A stretch of DNA of 60,471 nucleotides, taken from contig VGWI01000006.1 in NCBI GenBank assembly GCA_016873655.1, positions 1 to 60,471 on the forward strand, read 5' to 3'. Made by a program: the position numbers and the translations under genes. This document shows positions 489-39,039 of the stretch, in pieces. The notes beneath the pieces were generated by a model. The model saw nothing but the letters and a program-made list of their open reading frames with translations, ran no database searches and was not told the DNA's origin. Source of the DNA: Lentisphaerota bacterium. GTDB taxonomy: Bacteria; Verrucomicrobiota; Kiritimatiellia; UBA8416; VGWI01. Position 1 is the first letter of the stretch. Every line of letters begins with the position of its first letter.

Positions 489-2270
489 TCAGCGGCCATC
501 AGGCGCTTCCCCGCCCGGCACAAGTATCTCGAAACCCTCGTTGCTCCACGCAACACGGTAGGCGTGGCGGAGCAGAAACGCGTCCATGTACTTGCGGCCC
601 TCAATGTGCCGCATCCGCTGCGACCTCTCCACCGCCGCGGACCCGGCCGGCCACATTGTGCTGCACGGATCGCCATTCGCGCGTACCACCACCGGCAGCG
701 GCAACCCGTCCAGTTCCGCCTGCTCAAGAGCCCGGCCAAGTACCTCTGGCCTTTTCACCAGCGGCCACGGCCCCCGCGCATAGGGGCGGGTGCGGGTGAT
801 GAAATGGAGCAGCGGCACATGCTCAAACGCGATCATGTACTCATTCGGCTGCACACGCGAATCCAGTTCCGCAAGCAACTCATTCAGGACCCGCGCTCTT
901 TCCGGTGTTGTGCGTATTCCCCGCAGCATCGGATGGTTCACCGCGGCAGTCAGCCGGAACCTGTTGGGGCAGTCCCTGTAGACACCGACAAACGCGTTGT
1001 AGACGGCGCAAACAACCAGAACGGAGATCCCCAGCGCGACGGCGAATGACGCACCACGCGGATCCATGCGCCGAAGCAGGCGCGGCGCAGGCGCCTGTCT
1101 AGCGGCAAGGAAGACAATCGGCGTGGCCAGCCAGACCGCAAACACGGCGTTGTTCATGCCGTTCCCGCTGCCCAGCGGCACCAGAAAGACCTGCAGGGCG
1201 GCAAGAAACGCGGCCAGCCGCAGCTCCGGCGGCGCCCCGCAACAACCTGCGGCCACCCCGCCCGCCGCGACGTAGCAGATTCCCGCCCACGTATAGGTAA
1301 TCACCGAAAACCCGTATATGAACGGGAAGGCGGCAAAAAACGCCAGGCACCCCGCCGACACGAATGCAAACATCACGCGCCGCGCATGAACCCCTGCCGC
1401 GGCAGCCGCACGCGAGAGCAGCGTCACCGCCACAACGACAACTCCCGCCAGGCCAAGAGCCATCGCATGGTCAGTGACAAGGCGCAGAGCCATGAAGCCG
1501 GGCACATAGAATTTGTCGTAGTGAGCAGTCGGGCTCGGCCCCATTTCGTTGACAATGCTGGCCCACACAACAGGGCCGTGTCCGCACAGGAGTATCGCGG
1601 CAACAACCGATCCCAGCCCGGCAACCCAACCTGCCGCAAAACGGACCGTTTGCGGCAGCGCGTCACGCAGCCTCCCGCCGCAGAGCAGCGCGTGGAAGGG
1701 TATTCCGAGCGCCAGCGCGGCCCCGACGGCGTTGGGTAGCCTGAGGAACACGCTCGCGCCAATGAGGAAGCCCGCCACATACATCAGGAGTCTGGAGCCC
1801 GCCGGAACGCCCCTGACCAACGCAAGCGCGCTGAGAAGGAAGAACAACGACGTAAGCGCGTTGTAGCTGAGGAAATGCGACCCGCCGCGCAGTATCAACA
1901 CCATGGTCAGCAGCAAGCCAGGCAGCAGAATACGCTGCGGCACATGCCGCCTGAGAGCAGCGTTGGCAGCCACGGCGCACAGACCGTAGCCGACAACAGA
2001 CCCGAGACGCGCTCCGACAAGCCCGAAACTTTCCGTCAGCGTGAGCCAGACCGCGTTGATGAGGTTTGCAAGCCACATGAGGGACCGGAACTCCACGCTC
2101 ACGGGATCGCTGAAGAACTGCTGATGCATGGAAAGCAGGACGCCCGTGTCAGTGAAATCTATCCCCTGCCATGCAAAGAGGGCGGGATACCCGAGTATCA
2201 GCACCCACATGGCGAACGCAAAGCGCCTGTCCATGGCCGCCGCGGATCCATCGCTCGTTCCCGCGCTCAC
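489..2270 (-). CDS. Polytopic membrane protein, probable GT-C-type glycosyltransferase
   Basis: 593 residues with about ten hydrophobic segments through residue 430, then a soluble C-terminal region of about 150 residues. An early periplasmic loop carries DFTDTG just after the first helix, the place where GT-C enzymes keep their acidic catalytic residue. The start is taken as GTG at 2270 because it overlaps the TGA of the upstream radical SAM gene by 4 nt (GTGA), which implies translational coupling; a downstream in-frame ATG gives MDRRFAF, 12 residues shorter. The likely role is transfer of a sugar from a polyprenyl-phosphate donor on the periplasmic side, inferred only from topology and the surrounding glycan genes. 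Confidence 0.65.
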   Translation of the reverse strand: MSAGTSDGSAAAMDRRFAFAMWVLILGYPALFAWQGIDFTDTGVLLSMHQQFFSDPVSVEFRSLMWLANLINAVWLTLTESFGLVGARLGSVVGYGLCAVAANAALRRHVPQRILLPGLLLTMVLILRGGSHFLSYNALTSLFFLLSALALVRGVPAGSRLLMYVAGFLIGASVFLRLPNAVGAALALGIPFHALLCGGRLRDALPQTVRFAAGWVAGLGSVVAAILLCGHGPVVWASIVNEMGPSPTAHYDKFYVPGFMALRLVTDHAMALGLAGVVVVAVTLLSRAAAAAGVHARRVMFAFVSAGCLAFFAAFPFIYGFSVITYTWAGICYVAAGGVAAGCCGAPPELRLAAFLAALQVFLVPLGSGNGMNNAVFAVWLATPIVFLAARQAPAPRLLRRMDPRGASFAVALGISVLVVCAVYNAFVGVYRDCPNRFRLTAAVNHPMLRGIRTTPERARVLNELLAELDSRVQPNEYMIAFEHVPLLHFITRTRPYARGPWPLVKRPEVLGRALEQAELDGLPLPVVVRANGDPCSTMWPAGSAAVERSQRMRHIEGRKYMDAFLLRHAYRVAWSNEGFEILVPGGEAPDGR

Positions 2271-3817
2271 CGGTCCGCCGCCCTTCGAGCGTCATGCGCA
2301 ACCCGTGGCCTTGATACCGGGACGTCCCTCAAGTTGTCGGACTTGAAATCATGGGAAGGCCACTCCTCACGGAATGCGTATTCAGATGAGGTCCGCGTGC
2401 GCGCCGAGGAAGAGACCATGGCTGCGAACCCGCGCATGTCTTCCGCGAATTCCCCCGTCCTTATCCCCCGCACCAGACGACGCCACAGGAAGGCGGGGTT
2501 CATATAGAAAGCCCTCTTGTAGAAGAGGTCGTAATGACGCTCTATCGCTTCCCACGAAAGAGTCGGATGATCACAAATGGGCCGCGTGTTGTACACGTCG
2601 TACAGATCCCAGTCATACGACTTTATGCGGCCGAGACGACGGAAGTCGGAAAACATCTTCGAGCCCGGAAGCGGCACCGTGACACCGCACCTCATCATGT
2701 CAAGCGGCAGACTCCGGGCATATTCGATCGTGTCCTTCATGGATGCCTCCGTGTCGCCGGAAAGACCAACCATGAACATCCCGAACGTGTCGAGCCCGGC
2801 CGCGCGCGCCATCCTCACCGCTTCCCTGCCCTGCTCAAGTGTTGCCTTACCGCCCTTGCCGAACCCTTTCAATACCTCGTCATTGCCCGATTCGAATCCG
2901 AAATGAACCCGGTAACAGCCGGCGCGGCGCATGCTCCTGAACAGTGACGGACGCGCGCTGTCAACCCTGATCCCGTTCGAGCATGTCCACGCCATGCGGA
3001 TGCCGCGGCTCGATATCGCATCGCACACCGATTCCGCCCAGTCGTTGTGCGAAGTGAAGATATCGTCCGCAAGAAGCGCTTCGCGGAAACCCAAACGGTA
3101 CAGGGCCTCCATCTCCTGCGCACAGCGTTCCGGCGATTTCCGCCGCAGGCCGAACCCCACGGTGTTCTTGCTTCCGCAGAAATCGCACTTGAAGACACAC
3201 CCGCGCGAGAACTCGATCATCGAAGCAGGCGGGTGCTTCACAAGCAACCGGCTGCACCTGGACTTGTATTCATCCGCGTTGTACAGGTCCCAGGCCGGCA
3301 TCGGCAAATCGTCAAGATGCCCCACAAGCGGCCGCGGGGGGTTCATCACCGTCGCGTCCCCGTCGCGACGGCACACGCCGGCGATGCCCTTGAGATCCGC
3401 CCCCGAGGCCACCTCGGCGAAGGTTTCGTCGCCCTCGCCGTAGACAACGCAGTCGAGCATGGACTCGCAGAGCGTTTCCTCGGGCAAGGCGGAAGGATGC
3501 GGCCCGCCGCCAACCAGCAGGATCCCGCGGGAGATGCCCTTGATGAGACACGACATGTCGCGCAACTGGTTCATGAGCGGCGTGGCCGCCGTGATCCCCA
3601 CCACATCCGGCTTCCATCCGACAACATGCCGGCGGACCTCGTCAGCCCGGTAGTCGCGGTAGGACAAGTCCAGGATCCGGACCTCGTTCCCGGCCCTGCG
3701 CGCCGTCGCGGCAACGGCGGCGAGCCCAAGGGTCGGGAACACCGGGACAACCGCACCCGCGCGGGTTGCGTGGTAGACGCGGGAATAGGACGGATTGACA
3801 AGCAGTACCCTGGCCAC
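2267..3817 (-). CDS. B12-binding-domain radical SAM protein
   Basis: 516 residues. The N-terminal Rossmann-like domain (about 1-140) is of the cobalamin-binding type, with ARVLLVNPS at its start and LVGGGPHPS in the middle. The radical SAM core follows with C207-x3-C211-x2-C214, which binds the [4Fe-4S] cluster. The DxHxxG cobalamin-ligand motif is absent. A start is possible at GTG 3847 (ten residues longer); GTG 3817 is preferred because AGGGG lies 5 nt upstream and the cysteines then fall at the same residues as in the divergent paralogue. Family members do SAM-dependent radical chemistry such as methylation of unactivated carbons; the substrate here is unknown. Its stop overlaps the start of the membrane protein at 2270. 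Confidence 0.9.
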   Translation of the reverse strand: MARVLLVNPSYSRVYHATRAGAVVPVFPTLGLAAVAATARRAGNEVRILDLSYRDYRADEVRRHVVGWKPDVVGITAATPLMNQLRDMSCLIKGISRGILLVGGGPHPSALPEETLCESMLDCVVYGEGDETFAEVASGADLKGIAGVCRRDGDATVMNPPRPLVGHLDDLPMPAWDLYNADEYKSRCSRLLVKHPPASMIEFSRGCVFKCDFCGSKNTVGFGLRRKSPERCAQEMEALYRLGFREALLADDIFTSHNDWAESVCDAISSRGIRMAWTCSNGIRVDSARPSLFRSMRRAGCYRVHFGFESGNDEVLKGFGKGGKATLEQGREAVRMARAAGLDTFGMFMVGLSGDTEASMKDTIEYARSLPLDMMRCGVTVPLPGSKMFSDFRRLGRIKSYDWDLYDVYNTRPICDHPTLSWEAIERHYDLFYKRAFYMNPAFLWRRLVRGIRTGEFAEDMRGFAAMVSSSARTRTSSEYAFREEWPSHDFKSDNLRDVPVSRPRVAHDARRAADR

Positions 3818-3849
3818 GCAGACCCCTGTTCCATGGAACGGTTGCACAC

Positions 3850-3869
3850 GCGTCCTGCCGTCAGGACGC
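3850..3869. promoter_or_regulatory. Perfect 8-bp inverted repeat between divergent radical SAM genes
   Basis: GCGTCCTG, a 4-nt loop CCGT, then CAGGACGC: arms match at every position. It lies 33 nt upstream of the preferred GTG start of the leftward radical SAM gene, so it could be a leader hairpin or an operator shared by the two divergent genes. There is no T-run, so it is not an intrinsic terminator. The rest of the 3818-4019 interval shows a TTGACT on the plus strand near 3960 but no good -10 partner. Confidence 0.6.
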
Positions 3870-4019
3870 TGTGAGAGCGTAACCTCTATTGCCGAGACCG
3901 GTCAAGAATCAGGCCGCTTCAACCATAACTGCTCACCCGCGCCGCTCGTTGTTGCGATTTGACTGTCATCTGCGGATGTGCGACTTTGCGGCGTTTGTCG
4001 CTACCTTGTGCGAGGCGCC

Positions 4020-5432
4020 ATGAGCAGGAACATCCTCTTCGTCATTCCGGACGAGAGAGAAGTGTACAGACACGTAAGTGTCAAAGTCGGAGCCTTCCAT
4101 CTGCCGTCTCTCGCCTTTGCCATCCTCGGGGCAATAGCCAGAGATCATGGCTGGAGAGCTTCCATTCTCGATCTTTCGATCGAGAAGGACGGAGTCAAGG
4201 CAATGGAAGCCGCTCTCCGTGATTCTGAACCAGAATATGTTGGCATCACCTGCACCAGCGCGTCCTACCATCAGTGCCTCAGCATCGCAGCCCACGTCAG
4301 GCGCATGCTGCCTTCTGCCGTAGTTCTGGCCGGCGGAACCCACGTAAGCTCGCTGCCTGAAGACTCCCTGGCCTCCGGCTTGCTGGACTATGTCTTCGTC
4401 GGCGAAGCGGATGTTTCCTTTGCGAAGTTTCTCGACGGCGTCCCTCCCGAGACAATCGAGGGCATCGCCTTCCGTGACCCAGGCGGCAATGTAAGGATAC
4501 AGCCGCATTCAGCCTTCCTGACCGATTGGGCACAGTCACCGATTCCAGACTACAGTCTCTACGATTTGGGCCGTTACCACATCTCACGCATTCAGGCGCG
4601 AAGGAATCCTGTTGTGTGGATAGAGACAAGCCGCGGATGTCCTTACGATTGCCAGATCTGCAACAAGGTAGTTCACGGACGCACCTTCCGGCCCAAGGAT
4701 GTGGCCCGTGTTATTGAAGAAGTGTCCTGCCTGGCGAGTAGTGGCGTTCGCGAGTTCCACATCGCGGATGATGGGTTCACCACGGACATGAACCGTGCTG
4801 AAGCCATCTGCGACGAGATCATCTCCGCCGGGATGGATGTTTCATGGTCATGCCTGAACGGGATCAGGGTCGACAGAGTCTCGGAAAACCTTCTGACCAA
4901 GATGCGCAGGGCCGGGTGCTACCGTGTATCCATGGGAATCGAAAGCGGAAGTCAGAAAGTCCTCGACTCCTTGGGAAAAGGAACAACTCCAGACCAGATA
5001 AGGTCGGCAGTCAGGTGGGCGAAGAGAGCGGGCCTTGAGACTTTCGGGTTCTTTATGTTCGGGAATCCGGGCGAGACGGAAGACACCATGAAGGAGACCA
5101 TTGACTTTGCCTGTACACTTCCTCTGGATCTGGCAAAGGCGAGCATAGTCATGCCATTCCCGGGCTCTCCCTTGCATGACCGCTACTCCGCCATGGGGTT
5201 GATACTCCCTCAAAAGAACAACTACCGTGATTACAACGTCTACGGTTCTGCCGGCAGCGTATACCGACACCCCAGCCTGCCGTGGGAGCTGGTTGAGAAA
5301 TACCAGAAGGCTTTCTATCGTGCCGTCTATCTGCGGCCCGGCTACATGGCAAGGCGTCTCGCTCACTCGGTTCGAACTGGCTCTCTCTTCGCCGATATCA
5401 TCGCAGCCGCCGGAATGAAATGGTTCGGCTGA
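4020..5432 (+). CDS. B12-binding-domain radical SAM protein, divergent paralogue
   Basis: 470 residues. The start is the ATG at 4020 (MSRNILFVIP), with GAGG just upstream; the track start at 3978 adds 14 residues without similarity to the family. A cobalamin-type Rossmann domain (about 1-140) contains VVLAGGTHVSSLPE. The radical SAM cysteines are C207, C211 and C214, identical in position to the leftward neighbour. The two proteins share NGIRVD, MRRAGCYRV, IESG and the C-terminal layout to the end, so they are paralogues. No DxHxxG motif is present. Codon use looks less GC-rich than in the flanking genes. The 3' end overlaps the SPASM radical SAM gene by 13 nt, implying coupled expression. 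Confidence 0.9.
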   Translation: MSRNILFVIPDEREVYRHVSVKVGAFHLPSLAFAILGAIARDHGWRASILDLSIEKDGVKAMEAALRDSEPEYVGITCTSASYHQCLSIAAHVRRMLPSAVVLAGGTHVSSLPEDSLASGLLDYVFVGEADVSFAKFLDGVPPETIEGIAFRDPGGNVRIQPHSAFLTDWAQSPIPDYSLYDLGRYHISRIQARRNPVVWIETSRGCPYDCQICNKVVHGRTFRPKDVARVIEEVSCLASSGVREFHIADDGFTTDMNRAEAICDEIISAGMDVSWSCLNGIRVDRVSENLLTKMRRAGCYRVSMGIESGSQKVLDSLGKGTTPDQIRSAVRWAKRAGLETFGFFMFGNPGETEDTMKETIDFACTLPLDLAKASIVMPFPGSPLHDRYSAMGLILPQKNNYRDYNVYGSAGSVYRHPSLPWELVEKYQKAFYRAVYLRPGYMARRLAHSVRTGSLFADIIAAAGMKWFG

Positions 5433-6742
5433 GCTCTCGACAACTGAAAATGTTCACTGCGTCAACAAAACTATCTATCTTGAAAGCTGTGCTGACGAAA
5501 CGCAGCCCGTACTACATCCAGTTCTACATCACCGGCCGGTGCCCGTTCCGCTGCAGGATGTGCAACATCGTCGAGACAAACTCGGCATTGCGGGAGGCAT
5601 CACTCGACGATATGCGGGCGATCGCCTCGAACATCCGCCGGATCGGTGGCGGCATAGTGCTCCTCACCGGCGGCGAACCGTTTGTCCGCCAGAATTTGCC
5701 GGACATCGTCCGGGCGTTCCTTGCCGAAGGGCTCGATGTGAGGCTGCAGACAGCCGGCATCGCCACGGATGAACAGCTACAGGCCGTTTACGACGCCGGC
5801 GCGCGGGACATCAACGTGTCGCTGGACTCGCTGGACGAGGCAAGGCAGGACTACATAAACGCAGTTCCCGGCTCCTGGCACAGGGCAATTGACTGCCTTG
5901 AAAGGATTTCAGCCATATTCGGGAGGAAGTCAGCCATAACCAGCCTCGGCTGCGTCCTGTCCAGTTTCAACTTCCGCGAGATACCTTCGATCCTGGAATT
6001 CGCCACGGCGATCGGTTGGCACCTCTCGCTCGTTCCCGTCCACATAGCCCCGGCCGGCAAACGGCTCGGGTTCCGCAGTTTCGACGGGGATTTCCTGTTC
6101 AGTAAGGAGGAACTCCCGGAGCTGGAACAGGTGATGGGAAAGCTCGTAAGGATGAAGAAGGCCGGGGCGCTGTTGTTCGATTCAGAACGTTACCTGAAAA
6201 GCGCCTTCAGTTTCCTTGCCGGAAACCCGCCGACATGGCGCCACAAGGGAGTATGCGACGCGCCGGACCTCTACTTCGCTGTCAGGCCGAATGGCGACAT
6301 GTCGGTCTGTTGCGATCATATGCTCGATCCGGGCCCGCCATCATTGCTGTCGCCTGCATTTGCCGCGGACTTCCGTTCGGGCAGAATACGCGCGCGATGC
6401 AAACCCGTCACGACACGCTGCAAAGGCTGCCATTACGGGTCATACCCGGAAGTCACCCTGTCCGTCCGCGATCCGAGAGCCTTCGCAGAGAGAGTCAGGC
6501 TCGCTCTCTCGCCCGGACGGAGCCGGATTCGTATGCCCGCCGGACATGGCGACTTCTTCCGCATCGCGGGGGAAACCCGCGCCCGCTCGCCGGGTGTCTA
6601 CGGTCCGTCCGCGACAGACCGTCATTCGGAACGAGTCAGACAATGGTCCGACCCGGCGGCAAGACGCGCGATCCAGGAGGCGGACGCCGAACGAAGGCGA
6701 GTGGAAGGACGGCTCAGGGCTGCGCAGGATCGGTCCGCCTAA
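5420..6742 (+). CDS. Radical SAM protein with SPASM-like C-terminal cysteines
   Basis: 440 residues. The radical SAM motif C41-x3-C45-x2-C48 is near the N-terminus, followed by the SAM-contacting LLTGGEPF at about 81-88. A second cysteine set (C279, C297, C298, C327, C334, C337) fits a SPASM or twitch domain that holds extra Fe-S clusters, with GDMSVCC as its central strand. SPASM enzymes include peptide maturases and sugar or aminoglycoside dehydrogenases. No precursor peptide is visible nearby, so a small-molecule or sugar substrate is more likely here. The last 90 residues are polar and Arg-rich without a recognised fold. An internal ATG at 5450 is an alternative start. The stop converges on the next gene with a 4-nt overlap. 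Confidence 0.85.
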   Translation: MVRLSSRQLKMFTASTKLSILKAVLTKRSPYYIQFYITGRCPFRCRMCNIVETNSALREASLDDMRAIASNIRRIGGGIVLLTGGEPFVRQNLPDIVRAFLAEGLDVRLQTAGIATDEQLQAVYDAGARDINVSLDSLDEARQDYINAVPGSWHRAIDCLERISAIFGRKSAITSLGCVLSSFNFREIPSILEFATAIGWHLSLVPVHIAPAGKRLGFRSFDGDFLFSKEELPELEQVMGKLVRMKKAGALLFDSERYLKSAFSFLAGNPPTWRHKGVCDAPDLYFAVRPNGDMSVCCDHMLDPGPPSLLSPAFAADFRSGRIRARCKPVTTRCKGCHYGSYPEVTLSVRDPRAFAERVRLALSPGRSRIRMPAGHGDFFRIAGETRARSPGVYGPSATDRHSERVRQWSDPAARRAIQEADAERRRVEGRLRAAQDRSA

Positions 6743-8445
6743 CGCATGTTCCGCATCAGCTCGCGCCACAGCAAAGCGCGAGGTCTCCCCGGCAGAACAG
6801 CGGTGACGGCGATCAGCAATCGGGATCTCCAACCGATCACGATATCCATGCTCCCCTTGTCCCAGGCGTCCAGAGCCGCGCGCGCAACTGCGTCGGGCGA
6901 CATCAACCCCTTGCCGTCATTGAGAACCCGAACACCCGCCGCGCGCTGGAAACCTGTAAAGGTGCCGGAAGGGCTGACGCAAGTAACCGTCACTCCTGTT
7001 CCGCGCGTCTCCGCCCACAGCGAGCGCGAGAAACTGAGCACGCCGGCCTTGCTTGCTCCGTAAACCGACATGCCGGGCAGCGGCACGGAGGCAATGCTGG
7101 ACGCGATGTTGAGTATGCGGCCCGATCCGTGGCGCAGCATGTCGGGAAGAAACAACCTGGTCAGCGCAACAGTTGCGAGGAGATTGACGCGGAGTATCTC
7201 CTCTGCCCTGTCCGGCGGATGTTTCACCAACCCTCCGCGAAATCCCAGGCCGGCGTTGTTGACGAGCCCGAACACGGGCTCGCCTTGATCCCTGACCCAT
7301 TCGAATACCCGGCGCGAAGCGCCTGGGTCAGAAAGGTCGGCGTGGAACGCTTTCCCGCCCGTTTCGGCAGCCAGGCGCGCAAGCCCGGCTGCATCGCGGT
7401 CCACGAGATAGAGCTTTCCGCCTCGCAAGGCGAGTTGGAGCGCCATCGCCCTGCCTATCCCCCCCGCCGCGCCGGTAATCAGAACGCGGCCGTCGCGGAA
7501 CCCCTGGAACCAGGCCACGGTCTCCCGCAGCCCGTCTTCGAAACGAACGCGCGGCTCGTAGCCAAGCGCACGCAGTTCGTCGCCGGTGCATACAAGCACA
7601 TCGCCGGCAAGGCATCTTGCCGTGAACGGGATCACGCCGCGCACGGCGTGGAGCAGCCGGAACATGGGCCGGGCAGGGAAGACCATGCCTCGATTCCCCT
7701 TCCCCAGCGCCGCGCGAATCAGTCCGAACATCTCGCCGAATGAACGCGGCTCCCCGTCGCTTGCGAACACAGTGACACGCCGCTCGCCCCGCCGGACCAG
7801 GTGCGCCAGAAAGCCCGCCATGTCCTCAACATGGATAACCGAAACCCGCCCTGCGAAACCGATTCGCGTGATGACGCCGCCGTTCAGCGCATCAAGTATG
7901 AAAGCCGCCATGTGCGAACCCGGCCTCATTCCCGGGCCGTAAACCCACGACGGACGGACTATGACCCACGGCAGCCCGGACGCGGCCACGAGCCGTTCAC
8001 ATTCCAGTTTGGAGCGGCCATAGGCCGATTGTGGATGACATGGGGACGCGCCGGTCAATGGGTTTCTGCACGGGTCCCACGGCGCCCTGTCAACCGCGCC
8101 GATCGTGCTGGTGAACACAAACAGCTTGAGGATCTTCGACTCACTCGCGACACGCATCAACCCGCGCGTTGCCTCAACATTGTTGCGCCCGTAATCGAGT
8201 CGCTTGCCGAAAACCGCCAACGCCCCCAGATGGAAAACCGTTTCCGCGGCCAGCAGTTCCTCGCGGTAGGCATCGGTGTCCAACAGGTCGCCCTGCACCA
8301 CGTTGAAACCACGCGCTCTCAGCTCCGCAGCAGCGGACGGGTCTCTCACGAGACACGTCACGGACCCGGCGCCGTACTCGCCGGCGAGTTTCCGGCACAG
8401 CGCAGATCCGATGAACCCGCCGGCGCCGGTAACGAACACTCTCAT
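6739..8445 (-). CDS. Fused NAD-dependent epimerase and short-chain dehydrogenase
   Basis: 568 residues holding two complete nucleotide-binding oxidoreductases. Residues 1-315 are an extended SDR of the epimerase/dehydratase type: GAGGFIG at 7-13 and catalytic Y142-x3-K146. Residues 319-568 are a classical SDR: GAAGGIG at 325-331, NNAG at 396-399, Y462-x3-K466. The start is ATG 8445, with GGAGG 9 nt upstream; the track start at 8505 runs through the end of the preceding methyltransferase and is not credible. The fusion suggests two successive steps on one substrate, for example dehydration or epimerisation and then ketoreduction of a nucleotide sugar or lipid. Such a two-domain fusion is uncommon, and the substrate is not deducible. 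Confidence 0.88.
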   Translation of the reverse strand: MRVFVTGAGGFIGSALCRKLAGEYGAGSVTCLVRDPSAAAELRARGFNVVQGDLLDTDAYREELLAAETVFHLGALAVFGKRLDYGRNNVEATRGLMRVASESKILKLFVFTSTIGAVDRAPWDPCRNPLTGASPCHPQSAYGRSKLECERLVAASGLPWVIVRPSWVYGPGMRPGSHMAAFILDALNGGVITRIGFAGRVSVIHVEDMAGFLAHLVRRGERRVTVFASDGEPRSFGEMFGLIRAALGKGNRGMVFPARPMFRLLHAVRGVIPFTARCLAGDVLVCTGDELRALGYEPRVRFEDGLRETVAWFQGFRDGRVLITGAAGGIGRAMALQLALRGGKLYLVDRDAAGLARLAAETGGKAFHADLSDPGASRRVFEWVRDQGEPVFGLVNNAGLGFRGGLVKHPPDRAEEILRVNLLATVALTRLFLPDMLRHGSGRILNIASSIASVPLPGMSVYGASKAGVLSFSRSLWAETRGTGVTVTCVSPSGTFTGFQRAAGVRVLNDGKGLMSPDAVARAALDAWDKGSMDIVIGWRSRLLIAVTAVLPGRPRALLWRELMRNMR

Positions 8446-8449
8446 GAGC

Positions 8450-9298
8450 TCAGACCTCCTGCCGCACCCCCCGCCCCGCGCGCAACGGCCGCCTGGCAAC
8501 AACAACGGTGTTCCAGCACATGAAACGCAGGGGCGGGATCAAACCAAGGAAGATGCGGTCAAGAAACCCCGCCACGGCAACACCGCACCTGTGCCTGTGA
8601 CCGTCCTTCAGAACCTTCTTCCAGTAACGCTCCTTTGAAGGATGCGCGCGTTCGACGAGGTAGAACCAGAGAAAGAGGTACAGCGCGAAAAACCACACTT
8701 CGCGATGGCGGATATACCCGAAATGCCGCCTGAACAGTTTCAGGTCACGCAGCCGGACCGGCCGCTCGTCAGGGCTGCGCATCGTTCCGGCAAGACGCCT
8801 GTAAACCTCGATCACCGGGTTGTAGGCGAGGGGCTCTATGAAGAACGCCATCCCGTCGTCGGCCATCACACGCGCCACCTCGGGAAGGGCAAGCGCCTTG
8901 TCGGCGTGATGGAGTATGCCGTTCCCGTAGACCAGGTCGAACGATGCGTCGGGGAAAGGCAGCTTCTCCGCCGGAGCGCGCAGGAATTCAACGCTCACGC
9001 CGCGAGCCTCGGCAAGACGCCGCCCGAGCGCCAGCATCCCTTCGCTTATGTCGGTTCCGCACACGCGCGCTCCGCGCGTCGCGAAATAGACGGCCGCCTC
9101 GCCGGCTCCGCAGCCGAGGTCGAGAATCCGTTTCCCGTCAAGGTTTCCGGCCTCCTTGAGACATATGCTGTTCTCGAAGGCGGTGTTGGCGGTGAAAGGT
9201 TCTTCCACGAGGAGGTCCGACAGCTCAAGCCGGCCTGCGGCGTTATCGTGGTAACGCTCCTCTCGCTCAAGCGCCGACGACCCGTTGGCAGATGTCAT
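8450..9298 (-). CDS. Class I SAM-dependent methyltransferase
   Basis: 282 residues. Motif I is LDLGCGAGEAA at about 59-69, followed by an acidic end of strand 2 (GTDIS) and a post-motif segment YGNGILHH, which defines a UbiE/COQ5-like Methyltransf_11 fold. The C-terminal third has a hydrophobic stretch (WFFALYLFLWFY) and basic residues, suggesting association with the membrane or a lipid substrate. It ends 4 nt before the start of the epimerase-SDR fusion, so the two form one transcription unit. The likely role is methylation of a lipid or glycan intermediate. Confidence 0.85.
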   Translation of the reverse strand: MTSANGSSALEREERYHDNAAGRLELSDLLVEEPFTANTAFENSICLKEAGNLDGKRILDLGCGAGEAAVYFATRGARVCGTDISEGMLALGRRLAEARGVSVEFLRAPAEKLPFPDASFDLVYGNGILHHADKALALPEVARVMADDGMAFFIEPLAYNPVIEVYRRLAGTMRSPDERPVRLRDLKLFRRHFGYIRHREVWFFALYLFLWFYLVERAHPSKERYWKKVLKDGHRHRCGVAVAGFLDRIFLGLIPPLRFMCWNTVVVARRPLRAGRGVRQEV

Positions 9299-13111: not shown

Positions 13112-13440
13112 TCATCCCGCACTCCCAGGGACCACCGGCGTGTGGGCCGGGACCGAGCCCGGCAATGGCGAACAGCCCAGCTTCCGAACAAGTTCGACGG
13201 TCAGCGCGTTGAGGTCGGCGATGACCGCAGTGGCTTTGGAAAAGTCGTTGCTCCGAGTGTGTTCGTTCGGTATCGCGACGCTTCTCATTCCGGCAGCATG
13301 CGCGGCGAGGATCCCCTTCTCAGCATCCTCCACCACCAGGCACTCTGAGGGCGGCACACCCAGCGCCGACGCAGCCGCGAGGAAGATGTCGGGGAACGGC
13401 TTCACCCTCAACACGTCGTTTCTCGTGACGATGCAGTGCC
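13112..13440 (-). pseudogene. C-terminal remnant of a HAD-family phosphatase (beta-phosphoglucomutase-like)
   Basis: The frame read leftward from about 13440 gives IVTRND, KPFPDIF and VVEDAEKGILAAHAAGM, the C-terminal HAD motifs III and IV: the Lys before PDIF and the ED that binds Mg2+. The frame is closed upstream by TGA at about 13445, and no N-terminal DxDx(T/V) motif I or cap domain exists, because the ATP-grasp gene ends at 13465. About 110 residues of a normally 210-230 residue enzyme remain. It cannot be a functional phosphatase by itself. It could be a decayed gene or a recombination scar at the edge of an inserted operon. Confidence 0.75.
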
Positions 13441-13464: not shown

Positions 13465-14613
13465 CTACCTTCTGGAGCGAAGACTCTTCCTGTGCCGGAA
13501 GGCATACACCGCCTGGACAATGGCCGGCGCCGGATCGCTTAAAGAAAGACTCCTGTGCACAGCCGGATTGACAAACATGCCAGCCCACTGAGCCATCTCC
13601 TTCAGCGGATGCGGACCATTCACGGCTCTCAGCAGATCGAAGTCCGGCCACCAGAATCTTGTTCCTTGCGCAGCCTCGCAAGGCGTGGGGGGACGACCAA
13701 GAGCCTGCATGACATGGTAGTATGGGATCTCGCATCCAGCCGCTATCCCAAGCTCAAGCGATCCCCAGTACTTCGGGTTCACCTCCATCAGGTAGAGTTT
13801 TCCGTTCCGTTCGTGTTCCTTGAACTCCACCATCGCGACACCGTGCCACTGCAGCGCATCCAGCAGTCTCTTCCCATGCTCGCGGAGATCTTCCCGCCTG
13901 CATACGGCCGCATAGGTGCTGGCGCCGCCGGAACGCGGATACATCCTGAGCCGCCGGTGCATGTAGGACACCACAAGTCTGCCTTCCCAATACAATGCGA
14001 AGAAGCCATATCCGTTGGAGCCGGGCACATATTCCTGGACTATGGGCGGACCTTCGCCTTTCCTTACACGTTTCGATATGCGCACAACGGCTGCATCCAA
14101 CTCGTCTCTGTCCAATGCGTAGGCGACGGAATCAAATGCTTCGCGAGCCTTTACCACGACGGGATAGTCGTTCACCGAGTCCAGAGCTTCTTTTGTCGTG
14201 GCTTCAAGCGTCCATGGCACATGGAGCCCGATTTCCCTTGCAAGCTCCGCGGTCCTTCCCTTGTCCGCGGCAAGCGAGAACTTGTCGAAGTCAACCACCG
14301 GCACCTTCGCATAACGCGACAGGCGTTCGCGGAACCTTGATGCCAGCCTGTGAGCAGTGAGGCCGACCGGAAGGAAAACATCAAACGACTCTTTCTCCAG
14401 CACGCCGGCGATATCTTCGACGAACGCCTCGGCATCGTCAATCGGCGCCGTACTGAACGTGCCTCGGCACCATCGTGATGAACCGGCAAGAGTCCGGCCA
14501 GGGTCGGGAGAAGCGACAAACACATCCATCCCGCGCCGCCCAAGACAACGCACTATGCCCAGGGCGTGCTTGTAGCTGGGGTCCGTTACCAGCACCCTGA
14601 TGCGCCCGTTCAC
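13465..14613 (-). CDS. ATP-grasp ligase-like protein
   Basis: 382 residues from GTG 14613, which overlaps the TGA of the PHP gene by 4 nt (GTGA); the track's 61-residue extension lies inside that gene. The N-terminal Rossmann-like pre-ATP-grasp domain starts IRVLVTDPS. The ATP-grasp domain has PVVVKAREA, the hinge QEYVPGSNGYG and the Mg-binding MEVNPKYWGSLELG near residue 290. The fold is that of carboxylate-amine ligases and of carbamoyl-phosphate-synthase-like enzymes. In this operon it may form an amide or ester on a sugar acid or lipid. Base composition is visibly less GC-rich than in the flanking genes. Substrate unknown. Confidence 0.85.
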   Translation of the reverse strand: MNGRIRVLVTDPSYKHALGIVRCLGRRGMDVFVASPDPGRTLAGSSRWCRGTFSTAPIDDAEAFVEDIAGVLEKESFDVFLPVGLTAHRLASRFRERLSRYAKVPVVDFDKFSLAADKGRTAELAREIGLHVPWTLEATTKEALDSVNDYPVVVKAREAFDSVAYALDRDELDAAVVRISKRVRKGEGPPIVQEYVPGSNGYGFFALYWEGRLVVSYMHRRLRMYPRSGGASTYAAVCRREDLREHGKRLLDALQWHGVAMVEFKEHERNGKLYLMEVNPKYWGSLELGIAAGCEIPYYHVMQALGRPPTPCEAAQGTRFWWPDFDLLRAVNGPHPLKEMAQWAGMFVNPAVHRSLSLSDPAPAIVQAVYAFRHRKSLRSRR

Positions 14614-15281
14614 TTTGCAGTCCCCTTCGCCGCCGCTTCTGGAACATGCCGCATGCCGGCAAACGCACGCACCGCCTTCCAGAGCTGGCTGGCGATGATG
14701 TTTCCCCTCCCGGTCTTGCCGCAGTTCCACGTCAACTCCCCGCGCCTGAATGCGTCCAGCGACTCGAACTCCAGCACCGCGTTCCCGAGCTCCCATGGCA
14801 GATGGGCGTCCGCGCCGGCAATCGGCTTGAGGCCCAGTTCCCCGGCAAGGAGCGCGGCCATCCTGTCCTGACCGGCGCTCGTCCTGCCGTTAGCCACTTC
14901 AATGAAATCGCACGCGGCAATCCACGACCTGTCAGCCAGGTCGTGCGCGGAGAACGGGTGCGGAAGCACCGCGAGCCCCCCGCGCGCGTGTATCTTCTCT
15001 ATAAGCAGTCCCGGCTCTTCGTTGAAATCTTCCTCCATCTCTTCCACAAAAACGGCAACCAGGTCTCCGCGCGGGGTCTTGTATTCGACCCCCGGCACCA
15101 CCGTAACCGGAAGCCGCTCCGCACGCGCCGCATCGCGCGCCGCCAGTGCGCCGCGTATGGCGTCGTGATCGGTTATGAAGACGCAGTCCACCCCGTTCCG
15201 GGCACACCAGCGCACAGCGCCCGCCGGCGATATCGCGCCGTCAGGAGAACTCGTGGTGTGTACGTGGAATACGGCCTTCAT
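14610..15281 (-). CDS. PHP-domain metal-dependent phosphoesterase
   Basis: 223 residues starting at ATG 15281, which shares ATGA with the stop of the deacetylase-like gene; the track start is 11 codons too long. The PHP motifs are present in order: FHVHTTSSPDG at 5-15, TDHDA at 37-41, VVPGVEY, LPHPF and the closing DAHLPWE. These bind a tri-metal centre. Related proteins (TrpH/YciV type) hydrolyse phosphate esters such as pAp or oligonucleotide ends, and PHP phosphatases also occur in glycan clusters as tyrosine phosphatases. The C-terminal 45 residues are basic. It is coupled on both sides by 4-nt overlaps. Confidence 0.88.
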   Translation of the reverse strand: MKAVFHVHTTSSPDGAISPAGAVRWCARNGVDCVFITDHDAIRGALAARDAARAERLPVTVVPGVEYKTPRGDLVAVFVEEMEEDFNEEPGLLIEKIHARGGLAVLPHPFSAHDLADRSWIAACDFIEVANGRTSAGQDRMAALLAGELGLKPIAGADAHLPWELGNAVLEFESLDAFRRGELTWNCGKTGRGNIIASQLWKAVRAFAGMRHVPEAAAKGTAK

Positions 15282-16060
15282 CGGGTCAACCTTTTCGTTT
15301 CTTCGAGCACCCACAGGGCGTATTCACGATAGCGCGGCAGTGTTGGCGACAACGATCTCTGGTGCAGGTCTACAGTCACACCCAGCCCCTGTCGCGCGGC
15401 TTCAGCGAATATCCGTGCGGTTTCAAGCCTGGCCGATTCCATCATCCGCGCGGCCGGAGCCCTGTTCTTCACCGCGTCAACAAACTCGCCGTCCATGATG
15501 TTCACCGGCCGCTCGAAGTCGCCGTCGCCGAAGAAACGGTCGGATGCCAGGATGCTGGAATCAAAGAGGAAAAGCCCACTGCACGCGACAGGGTCAAACC
15601 CGGCTCCGGCAAGGTAGTGCATCCTGAGCGGAACAGGGCCTTCTATCCCGTAGACTTCCCTGAACTCCGCGAGTTCGACCGCAAGCCCGGCCGGGTCATC
15701 GCGGCACTGGGAATGCAGGCCGATTGCACAACCCGCTTTCTTCAGCATGTCCACAACCTGCCGCGCCCGGGCAGGTGTATACGCAATGCCGCGGCCGCGG
15801 CGGCACGCGACGAACCAGGTGGAGCGGATACCCAGCGCCTTCTCGCGTTCCAGCCATTCAGGCACGCAGAACCAGGCATCCCTGCCGCCCAGAGCACTTC
15901 GCGACATCAGGAACATCGCCCTCAACCATTCGCGCGGCGACAGCGATCTCCGGGCAAGGCCGATGCAACAAAGTCCCGCAAAGCGGACGAGGCCTCCGTC
16001 GGCGATGTGATCCCGGAAGCCGAGGTGGTCCACGTCGTGAGTTATCTCTATCCTGAACAT
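15278..16060 (-). CDS. Polysaccharide-deacetylase-like protein (NodB fold)
   Basis: 260 residues from ATG 16060 (MFRIEITHDVDHLG). The metal-binding Asp pair of NodB-type deacetylases appears here as THDVDH at 7-12. RSTWFVA and AIGLHSQ match the later strand and metal-histidine motifs. The C-terminal VTVDLHQRS could carry another catalytic His. There is no signal peptide, so it would act on a cytoplasmic glycan or lipid-linked intermediate. The gene lies 5 bp after the flippase stop and overlaps the PHP gene. The NodB fold is likely; the exact reaction is unproven because some motif residues differ from classical members. Confidence 0.7.
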   Translation of the reverse strand: MFRIEITHDVDHLGFRDHIADGGLVRFAGLCCIGLARRSLSPREWLRAMFLMSRSALGGRDAWFCVPEWLEREKALGIRSTWFVACRRGRGIAYTPARARQVVDMLKKAGCAIGLHSQCRDDPAGLAVELAEFREVYGIEGPVPLRMHYLAGAGFDPVACSGLFLFDSSILASDRFFGDGDFERPVNIMDGEFVDAVKNRAPAARMMESARLETARIFAEAARQGLGVTVDLHQRSLSPTLPRYREYALWVLEETKRLTR

Positions 16061-16065
16061 TCCAG

Positions 16066-17433
16066 TCAACCCCCGGCCGCCGCGCAAGCCCGTGCGCCCG
16101 CACGCAGACGCAGGCTTTCCACCGCTATGCCGGCCGCGATTGCTCCGCGCGCAAGAAGTATCAGCGCCACGACGAACGACAGGTCAGGTCTGACAGCCGC
16201 ATCAACCGCCCGCCACGCGGCGCCGGGCAGCCACGGCTTGAAGAACCCCCACCCCATAAGGCAGTAGAGCAGCGCCACCTCACCCACCATAACCGGCACG
16301 TAGTACTTCAGGAACCCGAACCTCCGGCAGGCCGCCTCGTGAAACCCGTGCAGTATCGCGAGCGATCTCAGCGCGCTCGAGAGTCCCAGCAGCCACACGT
16401 AGGGGGCGTAGCCGGCATATGCGCGCCAGGGGCCGTAGAGATCCAGCAACGGCCGGGCGGCCAGGCCAAGAACAAGGGCCGCGCCGATCGACACGACCGC
16501 CGTTCCAGCGAGCGCCTGGCCGTGCAGGCCGGAAGTTGATTCGCCGCGCTCATGACGGTCGGACACCATGGGAAACAGAAACGGCATCAGCGCAGAACAG
16601 ACAAAGGCCGGCATGTTGCCGAACATCGAGACTATGTAGAACGCAGCCGAGTCCGCTTCCGGCAGGCGTTGCCTGACTATCCAAGGCTCGATCACGCCCT
16701 GCGCACTGGTTAGGAGCATCATCACGCCGACTGGGACCAGGTACTTCCACATTGCCCGCAGGTCGGCGGTATAGCTCTCGAAGGGCACGGCAGCGCTCTT
16801 CCGCCCCAGCCCCCAGACCAGGGCCAGAACCATCACCGCCATGCCGCCGGCCTGCGCCGCGAAGTAACCGGTCACCTGCAAACCGCGCAGAAGCAGCAGG
16901 CAGAGGACGAGCCTCGCCACCGGGCCGGCAAGAGTGCCGAACGTGAGGCGGTAGTATTTTCCGGTGCCCTGGACCGCCGTCAGCGCCACACCCGACCAGC
17001 AGCTTGCTACGGCAACCGCGCCGACCATCCACATCACCGCCGGATCGGTCAGCTTCAGACGGTGCATGATGAAACCGCGGCCCGTCAGCAGGACGAGCGC
17101 CGTCAGAACCGACAGCCCGACGGAAAACAGGAACATGTCCCGCATGACCCGCCTTATCTTGCCGGTCTCGCCCCGCGCCCTGAAGATGGTCAGGTATTTC
17201 AGCAACGCCTGCAGCACGACGGAAAGAGGAATGACCAGCAGGGCAGGGATGTTCGAAAGCGGCAGAACGGCGCCCAGTTTCGATCCGTCTATCGCCGCAG
17301 GCACAAGGATCATGCCTATGTAGAAGTTGATCCCGTCACCAAGCCGCGAGACAAGAAACTGCAGCCCGCCGTGCCACCACAGCGGGCCTATCCGCATTCG
17401 AAGATCGCGCAACCGGTTCAGAACGGAGCCCAC
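16066..17433 (-). CDS. Polysaccharide flippase-like membrane protein (MOP superfamily, Wzx-type)
   Basis: 455 residues with about 12-14 predicted membrane helices, no large soluble domain and a conserved N-terminal GDGINFYIGM-like opening helix. The start is GTG 17433, because GGAGG lies 7 nt upstream; the track start at 17451 lacks such a site. Members flip polyprenyl-linked oligosaccharides across the inner membrane. It is the first gene of a four-gene leftward operon with the deacetylase-like, PHP and ATP-grasp genes, and this supports a glycan-export role. Confidence 0.85.
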   Translation of the reverse strand: MGSVLNRLRDLRMRIGPLWWHGGLQFLVSRLGDGINFYIGMILVPAAIDGSKLGAVLPLSNIPALLVIPLSVVLQALLKYLTIFRARGETGKIRRVMRDMFLFSVGLSVLTALVLLTGRGFIMHRLKLTDPAVMWMVGAVAVASCWSGVALTAVQGTGKYYRLTFGTLAGPVARLVLCLLLLRGLQVTGYFAAQAGGMAVMVLALVWGLGRKSAAVPFESYTADLRAMWKYLVPVGVMMLLTSAQGVIEPWIVRQRLPEADSAAFYIVSMFGNMPAFVCSALMPFLFPMVSDRHERGESTSGLHGQALAGTAVVSIGAALVLGLAARPLLDLYGPWRAYAGYAPYVWLLGLSSALRSLAILHGFHEAACRRFGFLKYYVPVMVGEVALLYCLMGWGFFKPWLPGAAWRAVDAAVRPDLSFVVALILLARGAIAAGIAVESLRLRAGARACAAAGG

Positions 17434-17518: not shown

Positions 17519-18976
17519 ATGAATATCAGCCGCGTACTCCTCCTGATGCCCCCGAACGTCACGGTGATTGAACCGTTCAGCTCGTCGGGCGTTGAACAGC
17601 CCATCCTCTCCGGCTTTCCAATGGGACTGGGCTACATAGCATCGTACCTTCGCGCAAACGACGACGTGGAAGTGAGCATTCTGGACGGCACGCTGGATAA
17701 CCCGGGACTCGACGAGATGTGCCGCCGAATCGGCGAATTCAAACCGGACGCTGTCGGCATGACCCTCTATACGCGCACGGTCAAGGTCGCCATCGCGCTG
17801 GCTGAACTTATCCGGGAACGTCTTCCCGGGACGGTGCTGATAGCCGGGGGCCCGCACGCTTCGGACGACTATGAAAGCCTGCTCCGCCACCATCCGGTCT
17901 TTGACTTCGTGGTTGTGGGGGAAGGCGAGGTGACGATGCTGGAACTCCTTCGGTTTCTCCGTCTCCACGGAGTAGACGGATCTCCCCCGTCGTTTCCAGG
18001 GCTGGCGTACAAACATCCATCTTCCGGCGAAGTCATCTTTACCGGCAGGCGACCGTACGTTGACGACATAGACTCCCTTCCGGAACCGGCCCGCGACCTT
18101 GTGGACTTCGGACGCTACATCCACGCACACAACCTCCTCCCCCACGCCGTCGAAATCATGGGGTCGCGCGGATGCACCCACCGCTGCGCGTTCTGCAGCT
18201 TCCAACGACGTTGGCGCGGAAGAAGGCCTGAGGCAGTCGTAGCGGAACTGAAGGAACTGGTCCGGCGTCACCCAAAAATCCGGTCGTTCCTCTTCTTCGA
18301 TGACAACTTCTCCGCCGACCAGGCACGCGTGGAGTCGCTCTGTAACCTGCTCATTGAGGAAGGCCTGAACCGGTGCGAATGGAGCGCGCTCTGCCGCGCC
18401 GACCAGGTGACCGGGCCGATGCTGGGGCTCATGCGGCGAGCTGGATGCCGGAAGATAATGTTCGGCGTCGAGTCCGCGGACCCGGGCATTCTGAAGACAC
18501 TCGACAAGCACCTTGAACTGGACGATGTCCGCCGGGCATGCTCCGCGGCCACACGTGCAGGAATGGATGCACTCGCGTTCTTCGTGATCGGCAGCCCCGG
18601 CGAAACGCTCGAGACCATCGAGCGCAGCCGCAAGTTCGCCGTTTCGCTCGCTTGCAGGTCAACACAATGGGGAATCATGCAGGTCTATCCCGGCACCAAG
18701 CTCGCCAGGATGCAGCCCTGCGAGGACTTCGCCGGATACCTGTACGAACCCGAGGTCCATTCTCCGGCGCCCGGCGGGCTCCATGCCTGTGTCCCGACGT
18801 TCGAAAATCCGGGGTTGGGCAGGGAAGACCTGAAACGCGAATTCGAGCGGGTTTACAGAAGAATCACACTGCGCAAAGCCATCCAACACCCGCTGTTCAC
18901 CCTCCGGAAACTGGCGCACAACCCCTCAGTCGCCGGAACGTTTGTCACAAGGTTCCTCGTTCCGCGGAAGAAGTAA
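17519..18976 (+). CDS. B12-binding-domain radical SAM protein
   Basis: 485 residues. The N-terminal cobalamin-type domain has RVLLLMPPN, then LIAGGPHASDDYE and VVVGEGE. The radical SAM cysteines are C219-x3-C223-x2-C226 in a GSRGCTHRCAFC context. There is no DxHxxG, with ILDGTLDN at that position. The C-terminus (about 420-485) is basic. It is of the same superfamily as the 2267-5432 pair but of a different subgroup (SFQRRWRGR after the cluster). It stands alone on the plus strand between the flippase operon and a leftward glycosyltransferase. SAM-dependent methylation or rearrangement of a lipid or glycan component is possible; the substrate is unknown. Confidence 0.9.
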   Translation: MNISRVLLLMPPNVTVIEPFSSSGVEQPILSGFPMGLGYIASYLRANDDVEVSILDGTLDNPGLDEMCRRIGEFKPDAVGMTLYTRTVKVAIALAELIRERLPGTVLIAGGPHASDDYESLLRHHPVFDFVVVGEGEVTMLELLRFLRLHGVDGSPPSFPGLAYKHPSSGEVIFTGRRPYVDDIDSLPEPARDLVDFGRYIHAHNLLPHAVEIMGSRGCTHRCAFCSFQRRWRGRRPEAVVAELKELVRRHPKIRSFLFFDDNFSADQARVESLCNLLIEEGLNRCEWSALCRADQVTGPMLGLMRRAGCRKIMFGVESADPGILKTLDKHLELDDVRRACSAATRAGMDALAFFVIGSPGETLETIERSRKFAVSLACRSTQWGIMQVYPGTKLARMQPCEDFAGYLYEPEVHSPAPGGLHACVPTFENPGLGREDLKREFERVYRRITLRKAIQHPLFTLRKLAHNPSVAGTFVTRFLVPRKK

Positions 18977-35276: not shown

Positions 35277-36741
35277 CTTGCAATCCCTGATCATCCGCCG
35301 GCGGCAGCGGTACCGGCAAGAATAACAGACGCATCCGGCGTTGCAAACCCTCACGCCGGCCGCCGAACATGCCGCACAGGACCGTCCACTCGACACGGTC
35401 CGCGGCCCGGTCACGGAAATACCGGAACAGGGGAAAGACCGTCGTGTCCGTGACATTCCCGCCGCGACGGAACCGGAACAGCCCCCAGAACGCCTCGTCC
35501 TCGCGCGCTTCTCCCCGCCGCTCGTGCGTGTAGACTGTCCAGAACGGGGCCCAGTTCCGCTCCGAAGGGCCGACCTGCGCCCCCGGCCACGCGTCGAGCA
35601 CCCGCACGGTCGCCGCGTCACGCTGCCGCGAGTACGAAACGAGCGGCCAGATCCGCACGTATCTGCCGACCGGCGGTTCGGCGACAATTCCCGCCTTCTC
35701 ATCGGCCCATGCGCGCTGCGTCTTGATGCTGAGGACCGGCGCTATCCTGAACTGGTCAGACCGGTAGTCGCTGCGCGTGGTCTGCCGCTTCTCAACCACG
35801 GGCCAGAGCACAAACCAGCTCCTGTCCCTGCCCGCTTCCTTCTTCCCCCACAGCGGGAAGAAATACGTCTTCTTCACCGGCCCGCGCACTTTCTGAACGA
35901 TCGGCCAGGCCGCGGTGAACTTGGAGTATTTTCCACCATCCCCGCTGCCCCACTGAAAGAAAGGCGGAACGGCCATCCACATGTTCTGCCGCTCGGTCTT
36001 GATGTGGGCAAGGAACGGAAAGAATATGAATCCGCCGCCCTTGTCGCCGGGATAGTCGTACCGGACACTGCTCCAGAACGGCCACATGACGAAACGCTTC
36101 TCCCAACGCCCACTGTTCACGGACCTTCCGTAGAACGGGAACACGCGAAACCGGTCCTGCCCTTCGCCGCGCGTCCTGGAGAATACGGGCCAGAGCCAGC
36201 TGCTCGACTTCAGGTCCCCCTTGCGGGTGGAAACATAGAGCGGGAACATGCAGAAGGTGATCCGGTCAAGCCCGGCGAAATCGCGCATCTCTCCGCCGAA
36301 CGGCACAAAGGCGAAGTAACGCCTGCCGCCGCCGTCCCGCCCGCCCACGACAAGCGGAAACAGCACGTACTGGTAGCGCGATGATGCGTCGTGGATGTCC
36401 TTGTCCAGCCCGTAGGCGACCCCGAACCGCCAGTAACGCTCACCCAGGAAATCTTTCACACTCCCAACCGGCCACGCGTACTCGCGCAGCCGCCTGTCGC
36501 GCCCCGGCTCGCGCAGTTCGCTGTACAAGGGACGCACGGCAAAGAACGAGTCCCCGCCCGGCGCAATGGTCTTCTCATAGACCGGGCCCAGCGCGCGCAC
36601 GCGCGTCGCCCCGTCGAGCGTGGTCAGGCGGCTGACGATCGGGCCGCCGTCGAGAGTGGCCGGGACCGTGACGCAACCTGCCGAGAGAAGCAGCATCAGG
36701 CAGACCGCGCCGCCGACGCCCTGCGCCGCGGAAATCTTCAT
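35263..36741 (-). CDS. Lipoprotein with aromatic beta-strand repeats, function unknown
   Basis: 492 residues from ATG 36741, sharing ATGA with the pyrB stop. The signal peptide ends in the lipobox LLLSAGC, so it is lipid-anchored. The rest is rich in Trp, Phe, Tyr and Arg, with short recurring units such as FPLYV, WPVFSR, FPFYGR, WPFWSS, FFPFLAH, FFPLWGK and LWPVVEK about every 20-30 residues. This suggests a repeated beta structure, possibly a propeller or an outer-membrane beta sheet. I do not recognise a named family. Position between pyrB and mlaE suggests a link with outer-membrane lipid transport. Confidence 0.8.
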   Translation of the reverse strand: MKISAAQGVGGAVCLMLLLSAGCVTVPATLDGGPIVSRLTTLDGATRVRALGPVYEKTIAPGGDSFFAVRPLYSELREPGRDRRLREYAWPVGSVKDFLGERYWRFGVAYGLDKDIHDASSRYQYVLFPLVVGGRDGGGRRYFAFVPFGGEMRDFAGLDRITFCMFPLYVSTRKGDLKSSSWLWPVFSRTRGEGQDRFRVFPFYGRSVNSGRWEKRFVMWPFWSSVRYDYPGDKGGGFIFFPFLAHIKTERQNMWMAVPPFFQWGSGDGGKYSKFTAAWPIVQKVRGPVKKTYFFPLWGKKEAGRDRSWFVLWPVVEKRQTTRSDYRSDQFRIAPVLSIKTQRAWADEKAGIVAEPPVGRYVRIWPLVSYSRQRDAATVRVLDAWPGAQVGPSERNWAPFWTVYTHERRGEAREDEAFWGLFRFRRGGNVTDTTVFPLFRYFRDRAADRVEWTVLCGMFGGRREGLQRRMRLLFLPVPLPPADDQGLQDDNP

Positions 36742-37823: not shown

Positions 37824-37844
37824 GGCACCCCTCCCCGCCCCAGG

Positions 37845-38858: not shown

Positions 38859-38889
38859 TGGCACCTCAACCGTCCCTCCGTGGAGTCCG

Positions 38890-38919
38890 ACTATAGACGC
38901 CCGATTCCGGCAAAGACAA
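38890..38919 (-). promoter_or_regulatory. Predicted argF-operon promoter
   Basis: Read leftward: TTGTCT, 18 bp, TATAGT. The -10 matches five of six consensus bases, the -35 four of six. It ends 31 nt before the argF start codon. The remaining sequence up to 39039 shows nothing else recognisable. Confidence 0.55.
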
Positions 38920-39039
38920 GCCCTTCCGCTTCGGCGCAACCATCCGCGCCCGCCGCCCGCCGCGCAGGCGCGTCAATCAAGTTTCACCATGACCCTGTCG
39001 AGCGCGGCGCCGCGTCCTGCATGCCCCGCCCGCTCACGG

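Follow-up and report, generated by a model that had tools for sequence, protein, structure and literature searches.

In the window, by which we mean the whole stretch of 60,471 nt that was analysed, a NodB-like protein, a PHP-family phosphoesterase and an ATP-grasp ligase are encoded by adjoining genes, and these form a module that recurs in bacteria and archaea: the genes remain linked, the enzymes belong to the same families and carry no signal peptides, and the phosphatase is interchangeable. The module is established by comparison, and its chemistry we infer. Our preferred reading, to which we give about even chances, is a mobile cytoplasmic cassette for glycan tailoring beside a Wzx flippase, combining deacetylation, ligation and phosphate removal with export. 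Acids or amino acids are joined by amide bonds to many surface glycans for which no attachment enzyme is known, and the module is a concrete, assayable candidate; it also suggests what many proteins of glycan loci labelled ‘PHP domain’ or ‘ATP-grasp’ may do. Its range extends from methanogens to Firmicutes, its phosphatases are interchangeable, and two of its carriers, Methanoculleus sediminis and Methanolobus vulcani, are isolates.

Gene organisation in the window

The minus-strand run (17433-13465) contains, in this order, the genes of the flippase, the NodB-like protein, the PHP protein and the ATP-grasp ligase (Table 1). The sequence-only reading had described 5-nt gaps and 4-nt ATGA/GTGA overlaps between them, and this is borne out by one 5-nt gap (flippase/NodB-like) and two 4-nt overlaps (ATGA for NodB-like/PHP, GTGA for PHP/ATP-grasp). 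The same four genes were recovered by our own codon-usage gene caller, which starts the flippase at 17397; this start is uncertain between GTG 17451, GTG 17433 and ATG 17397. Concerning base composition, the cassette does not stand out, the ATP-grasp gene being the lowest in GC3. Beginning 50 nt past the ATP-grasp stop, a HAD fragment matches PF13419, PF13242 and PF00702 at the profile C-termini only and has no N-terminal half. It is likely a gene remnant and may derive from an earlier phosphatase of the cassette, outside of which it may lie.

Table 1 Features of the minus-strand run and the adjacent HAD fragment
Feature	Position	Strand	Basis and start
Wzx-type flippase (MOP superfamily), first gene of the run	16066..17433	-	AF2 model and Foldseek; GTG 17433 to stop 16066
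NodB-like/CE4-like deacetylase, no signal peptide, atypical metal motif	15278..16060	-	Profile and Foldseek; ATG 16060
PHP-family phosphoesterase with PHP_C tail	14610..15281	-	Pfam and profile; ATG 15281
ATP-grasp ligase (PRK12767/ATPgrasp_Ter-like)	13465..14613	-	Pfam and profile; GTG 14613
HAD phosphatase C-terminal half, probable gene remnant	13112..13414	-	Pfam, profile C-termini only

The host genome is a 3.08-Mb draft. Genes for glycan or lipid biosynthesis fill the window from ~0.5 to 28.8 kb: they encode glycosyltransferases, methyltransferases and epimerases, together with an amidotransferase resembling asparagine synthase and a number of radical SAM or B12-binding proteins. Four radical SAM proteins of this region, three of them B12-binding, are found at 2267-6742 and 17519-18976. 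Within a single open frame at 6739-8505 (minus strand), a short-chain dehydrogenase domain comes after an epimerase domain, apparently as a fusion, and two neighbouring ornithine/aspartate carbamoyltransferase-like genes are present at 36738-38939 (minus strand).

Conserved domains and residues

The flippase has no match in Pfam or NCBIfam. Its AF2 model (pLDDT 88) has the MOP fold, with WzxE, MATE and MurJ as top Foldseek matches; the best is the lipid III flippase WzxE (E 5.4e-7, probability 1.00, TM 0.67/0.73).

The NodB-like protein is also without a match in Pfam or NCBIfam, and its similarity to the NodB fold of CE4 enzymes is seen against solved members: its profile (A6) matches the polysaccharide deacetylase 3rxz (4.4e-7), and the top Foldseek match of its model (pLDDT 68) is the peptidoglycan deacetylase 5jp6 (probability 1.00, E 2.8e-3). 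The invariant residues are H8, D9, D11, H116, R146, H148 and H233. While D9, D11 and H116 are in place, neither the window protein nor its nearest relatives have the second His of the CE4 motif 2 (H-x-x-x-H); H148 lies in an R-x-H that is invariant in this subfamily. The protein is therefore filed as NodB-like and not as a classical CE4 enzyme, and its deacetylase activity is not assured. It has no hydrophobic segment.

The PHP protein matches PF02811 (7e-7) and PF13263 (8e-8), both over the cut-off, and its profile matches 2anu (TM0559; 8.5e-24). The metal-binding His/Asp/Glu set of the family is conserved (H8, H39, E66, H108, D158 and H160). The ATP-grasp ligase matches PF15632 (9e-10, over the cut-off), its profile matches carbamoyl-phosphate synthase (1.6e-29) and the L-amino acid ligase BL00235, and the Mg-binding E277 and N279 are conserved.

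Recurrence of the module across lineages

An ATP-grasp-anchored scan of one genome per species (84,980 species), seeded with the ATP-grasp proteins of the window and of genome G286, returned 69 loci, of which 66 outside the window genome were usable (67 anchors with the window). Neighbours were counted within two genes in an uninterrupted same-strand run, with PHP, CE4-type and ATP-grasp proteins each identified by an iterated profile. The gene calls and motif-based classifications are our own; many loci come from draft metagenome assemblies and some are cut at contig ends. Outside the window genome, PHP genes were found near 20 of the 66 anchors, NodB/CE4-type genes near 27 and both near 14; with the window the counts are 21, 28 and 15 of 67, and 34 of 67 for either partner, all of which describe anchors picked by ATP-grasp sequence only from two PHP-linked seeds and so are not family-wide frequencies. 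None of the partners sought was found near 24 of the 67 anchors, some of them at contig ends. Genes at a distance of over four genes within these loci served as background; of these, 0/204 had PHP neighbours (Fisher 5e-14 against the anchors) and 17/204 had CE4 neighbours, both Fisher tests being uncorrected for relatedness. Based on these neighbourhood counts, the coupling of the genes is not due to chance.

The carriers are archaea (Methanoculleus, Methanolobus) and several bacterial phyla, with at least four gene orders and frequent 4-nt overlaps. The window's order, CE4-PHP-ATPgrasp, is found in Methanolobus vulcani (L110). CE4-ATPgrasp-PHP is present in Methanoculleus (L096, L097) and Patescibacteria (L119, L146), and PHP-CE4-ATPgrasp-PHP in Manganitrophaceae (L115, L132). 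ATPgrasp-PHP-CE4 is seen in Anaerolineales (L105), Promineifilum (L106), Cloacimonadota (L144), Acidobacteria (L128), Oscillospiraceae (L129) and Epulonipiscium (L151, L152). The genes around these loci are for the most part those of glycosyltransferases; FemAB, DegT and Wzx-type genes are also found. Two near-identical loci (L111 and L112) come from metagenome genomes named Chloroflexi and Rokubacteria, a probable case of misbinning or recent transfer.

Among 289 genomes of the phylum, relatives of the ATP-grasp are present in 31 besides the window's own. A further triad is found in genome G271 (CE4, ATP-grasp, PHP; gaps of 2 and 1 nt), and in G286 the ATP-grasp adjoins PHP. The search anchored on the NodB-like protein gave two remote relatives, one of them (G308) near an ATP-grasp without PHP; the PHP-anchored search (95 relatives) gave general PHP proteins only, and a search of genome contigs with the single window ATP-grasp sequence gave no matches. 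A PHP/ATP-grasp pair in genome G131 (L091, 10507-12183) was not counted as the same module: it is part of an operon for nucleotide sugars that also carries HisF/HisH-like and NeuB-like genes, its ATP-grasp is only a remote relative, and the pairing is possibly unrelated.

The neighbourhood search that the sequence-only reading had proposed thus finds the trio tightly packed and reordered, with its linkage kept across bacteria and archaea, and not the scattered genes that would have spoken against a unit. A trio present in both prokaryotic domains gives strong support to the coupling of the NodB-like, PHP and ATP-grasp genes, but the four-gene unit originally claimed does not extend to the flippase. 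Relatives of the flippase are found in 36 other genomes of the 289, all from the window's class, and the eight neighbourhoods inspected contain no triad; we therefore dropped it as a conserved partner. It is a general exporter, a class-wide Wzx relative with the cassette alongside, and Wzx-type genes also lie near several other cassettes.

Exchange of the phosphatase

Sixteen PHP-free loci combine this ATP-grasp with another phosphatase, either by fusion or as a nearby gene: LMW-PTP (fused in 11 loci, nearby in two), dual-specificity phosphatase (fused in one), HAD (adjacent in one) or histidine phosphatase (adjacent in one). The fused anchors of ~580 residues carry a C-terminal LMW-PTP with an intact C-x5-R-S, detected as PF01451 in L121, L122 and L126 and by profile in all 11. 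In L101 the ATP-grasp has a dual-specificity phosphatase domain; in L116 and L117 the LMW-PTP is two genes off or in the next gene, in L113 a HAD gene has a 4-nt overlap with the ATP-grasp, and in L141 a histidine phosphatase has a 20-nt overlap. PHP and another phosphatase occur together in 0 of the 16, against ~4.8 expected if they were independent (hypergeometric 0.0012, relatedness ignored). Phosphatase activity thus looks like the constant feature, of which PHP is one interchangeable version; read most simply, the pathway depends on a phosphatase, a role for which different lineages have recruited different folds. The role first suggested for the PHP enzyme, removal of a phosphate, gains support from the unrelated phosphatases in its slot and stands as a predicted activity.

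Linked deacetylases and the ATP-grasp tree

Pfam confirms PHP in five linked examples and PF01522 in the linked deacetylases of L110, L115, L128, L129 and L151 and in the G271 gene. Pfam-negative linked deacetylases (e.g. L097 and L105) contain the THD-x-D/E and G-x-H-G motifs, and their profile matches solved deacetylases (2e-11). The linked deacetylases fall in several subfamilies; the window family is homologous to the deacetylases of the Methanoculleus triad (hhalign E 4.4e-36). An N-terminal hydrophobic segment is found in none of the 41 ATP-grasp-linked CE4 proteins, and since ATP use requires the cytoplasm, all three enzymes probably work there, ahead of export.

In a quick ATP-grasp tree with several long branches, module-linked ATP-grasps from methanogens, Chloroflexota and Cloacimonadota share a 14-member group (SH-aLRT 97) with the window member, which suggests that the cassette has spread horizontally. 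PHP-linked, CE4-linked and unlinked members are mixed yet clustered (27 label changes against 40 when shuffled).

Comparison with known systems

NodB and ArnD are cytoplasmic deacetylases of the NodB/CE4 type. The window protein shares with this group the fold, the D-x-D and His motifs and the lack of a signal peptide; it differs in the R-x-H found in place of the second motif 2 His and in the linkage to a ligase and a phosphatase. In the deacetylase and FemAB pairs of XrtA/PEP-CTERM systems, an amine is deacetylated and then re-acylated. The idea would be the same in the window cassette, except that the acylation step would be carried out by an ATP-grasp with a phosphatase; FemAB genes are also near some of the loci. 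The window ATP-grasp belongs to the same sequence family as the carbamoyl-phosphate-synthase-like PRK12767/ATPgrasp_Ter proteins but scores under the NCBIfam cut-offs, and its setting is a surface glycan locus and not a Ter operon, no Ter family being present among the Pfam-scanned window genes.

By analogy, the nearest characterised logic is capsule glucuronamide synthesis in Campylobacter. According to the available text of the account for C. jejuni HS:2, an ATP-grasp amidoligase (Cj1438C) takes ethanolamine phosphate or serinol phosphate and a dedicated HAD phosphatase (Cj1435) later hydrolyses the phosphoryl group, likewise on a surface glycan, which explains the association of a ligase with a phosphatase (PMC11800379). 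In that text the ligase is TupA-like and the acceptor a uronic acid, and no deacetylase is named among the enzymes (PMC11800379); in the window there is no TupA match, and HAD is represented by the C-terminal fragment only. The sequence-only reading knew no named pathway with this gene order, and we likewise found no account of a deacetylase/ATP-grasp/PHP cassette in the open-licence literature, a search scope with most subscription papers outside it.

Proposed pathway and alternatives

In the proposed pathway, the NodB-like enzyme would strip an N-acyl group from a surface-glycan precursor sugar, probably lipid- or nucleotide-linked. The ATP-grasp ligase would then activate a carboxylate and form an amide with the freed amine, PHP would take a phosphate off the donor, the group ligated from it or the product, and the tailored lipid-linked glycan would be exported by the flippase. 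The first two steps, deacetylation followed by ATP-dependent ligation, were already proposed from the sequence; they fit the repeated CE4/ATP-grasp pairing, and the missing motif 2 His of the window protein counts against the deacetylation. A more specific version, which we offer only tentatively, is an undescribed re-acylation pathway of bacteria and archaea in which the freed amine is joined by the ATP-grasp to a phosphorylated acid (phosphoglycerate and phosphosulfolactate would be examples), any of five unrelated phosphatases then leaving a free hydroxyl on the amide.

It is highly improbable that three common surface-glycan genes merely stand side by side without shared chemistry: CE4-type genes do occur near 17 of the 204 background genes, but the PHP excess at the anchors (20/66 against 0/204, relatedness uncorrected), the 4-nt overlaps and a linkage kept despite reordering in archaea and bacteria all argue against crowding. 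We also regard as unlikely a regulatory role in which PHP, LMW-PTP and dual-specificity phosphatases act on a tyrosine kinase controlling polymer length, so that only the deacetylase and the ligase touch the sugar. The LMW-PTP, dual-specificity (DSP) and PHP (CpsB-type) families do include capsule-system protein-tyrosine phosphatases, and other contigs of the host genome contain three strong matches to BY-kinases. However, the PHP protein of the window is similar to TrpH/RNase-type and TM0559 proteins and has no CpsB-indicating NCBIfam match, the slot also holds HAD and histidine phosphatases, and direct fusion of phosphatase to ligase favours a common small-molecule pathway.

A Campylobacter-like reaction seems similarly doubtful. 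In it, the ATP-grasp would couple a uronic acid, through its carboxylate, to a phosphorylated amine, PHP would release the phosphate, and the deacetylase would act on another sugar. Exactly such a ligase and phosphatase pair is characterised in C. jejuni (PMC11800379), and the ligase-phosphatase pairing is recurrent in the surveyed loci; the C. jejuni ligase described there is TupA-like, however, a family with no match here, and the repeated deacetylase partner would be left unexplained. With the deacetylase as third partner, we favour the ligation of a carboxylate, possibly phosphorylated, to the freed amino sugar.

Further neighbours and fusions of the ATP-grasp

A ComA (phosphosulfolactate synthase) gene at 8152-8913 of L147 has a 4-nt overlap with an ATP-grasp of this family, a hint, not proof, that a phosphorylated acid (phosphosulfolactate) may be the ligase donor. 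At 729-2900 of L134 the ATP-grasp is fused to an aminoglycoside 3-N-acetyltransferase-type domain (AAC(3)-type; PF02522), which points to amine acylation as a possible activity. At 7001-8788 of L103 it is fused to a P-loop kinase-like domain, with no phosphatase, and a similar separate gene fragment lies upstream in L109.
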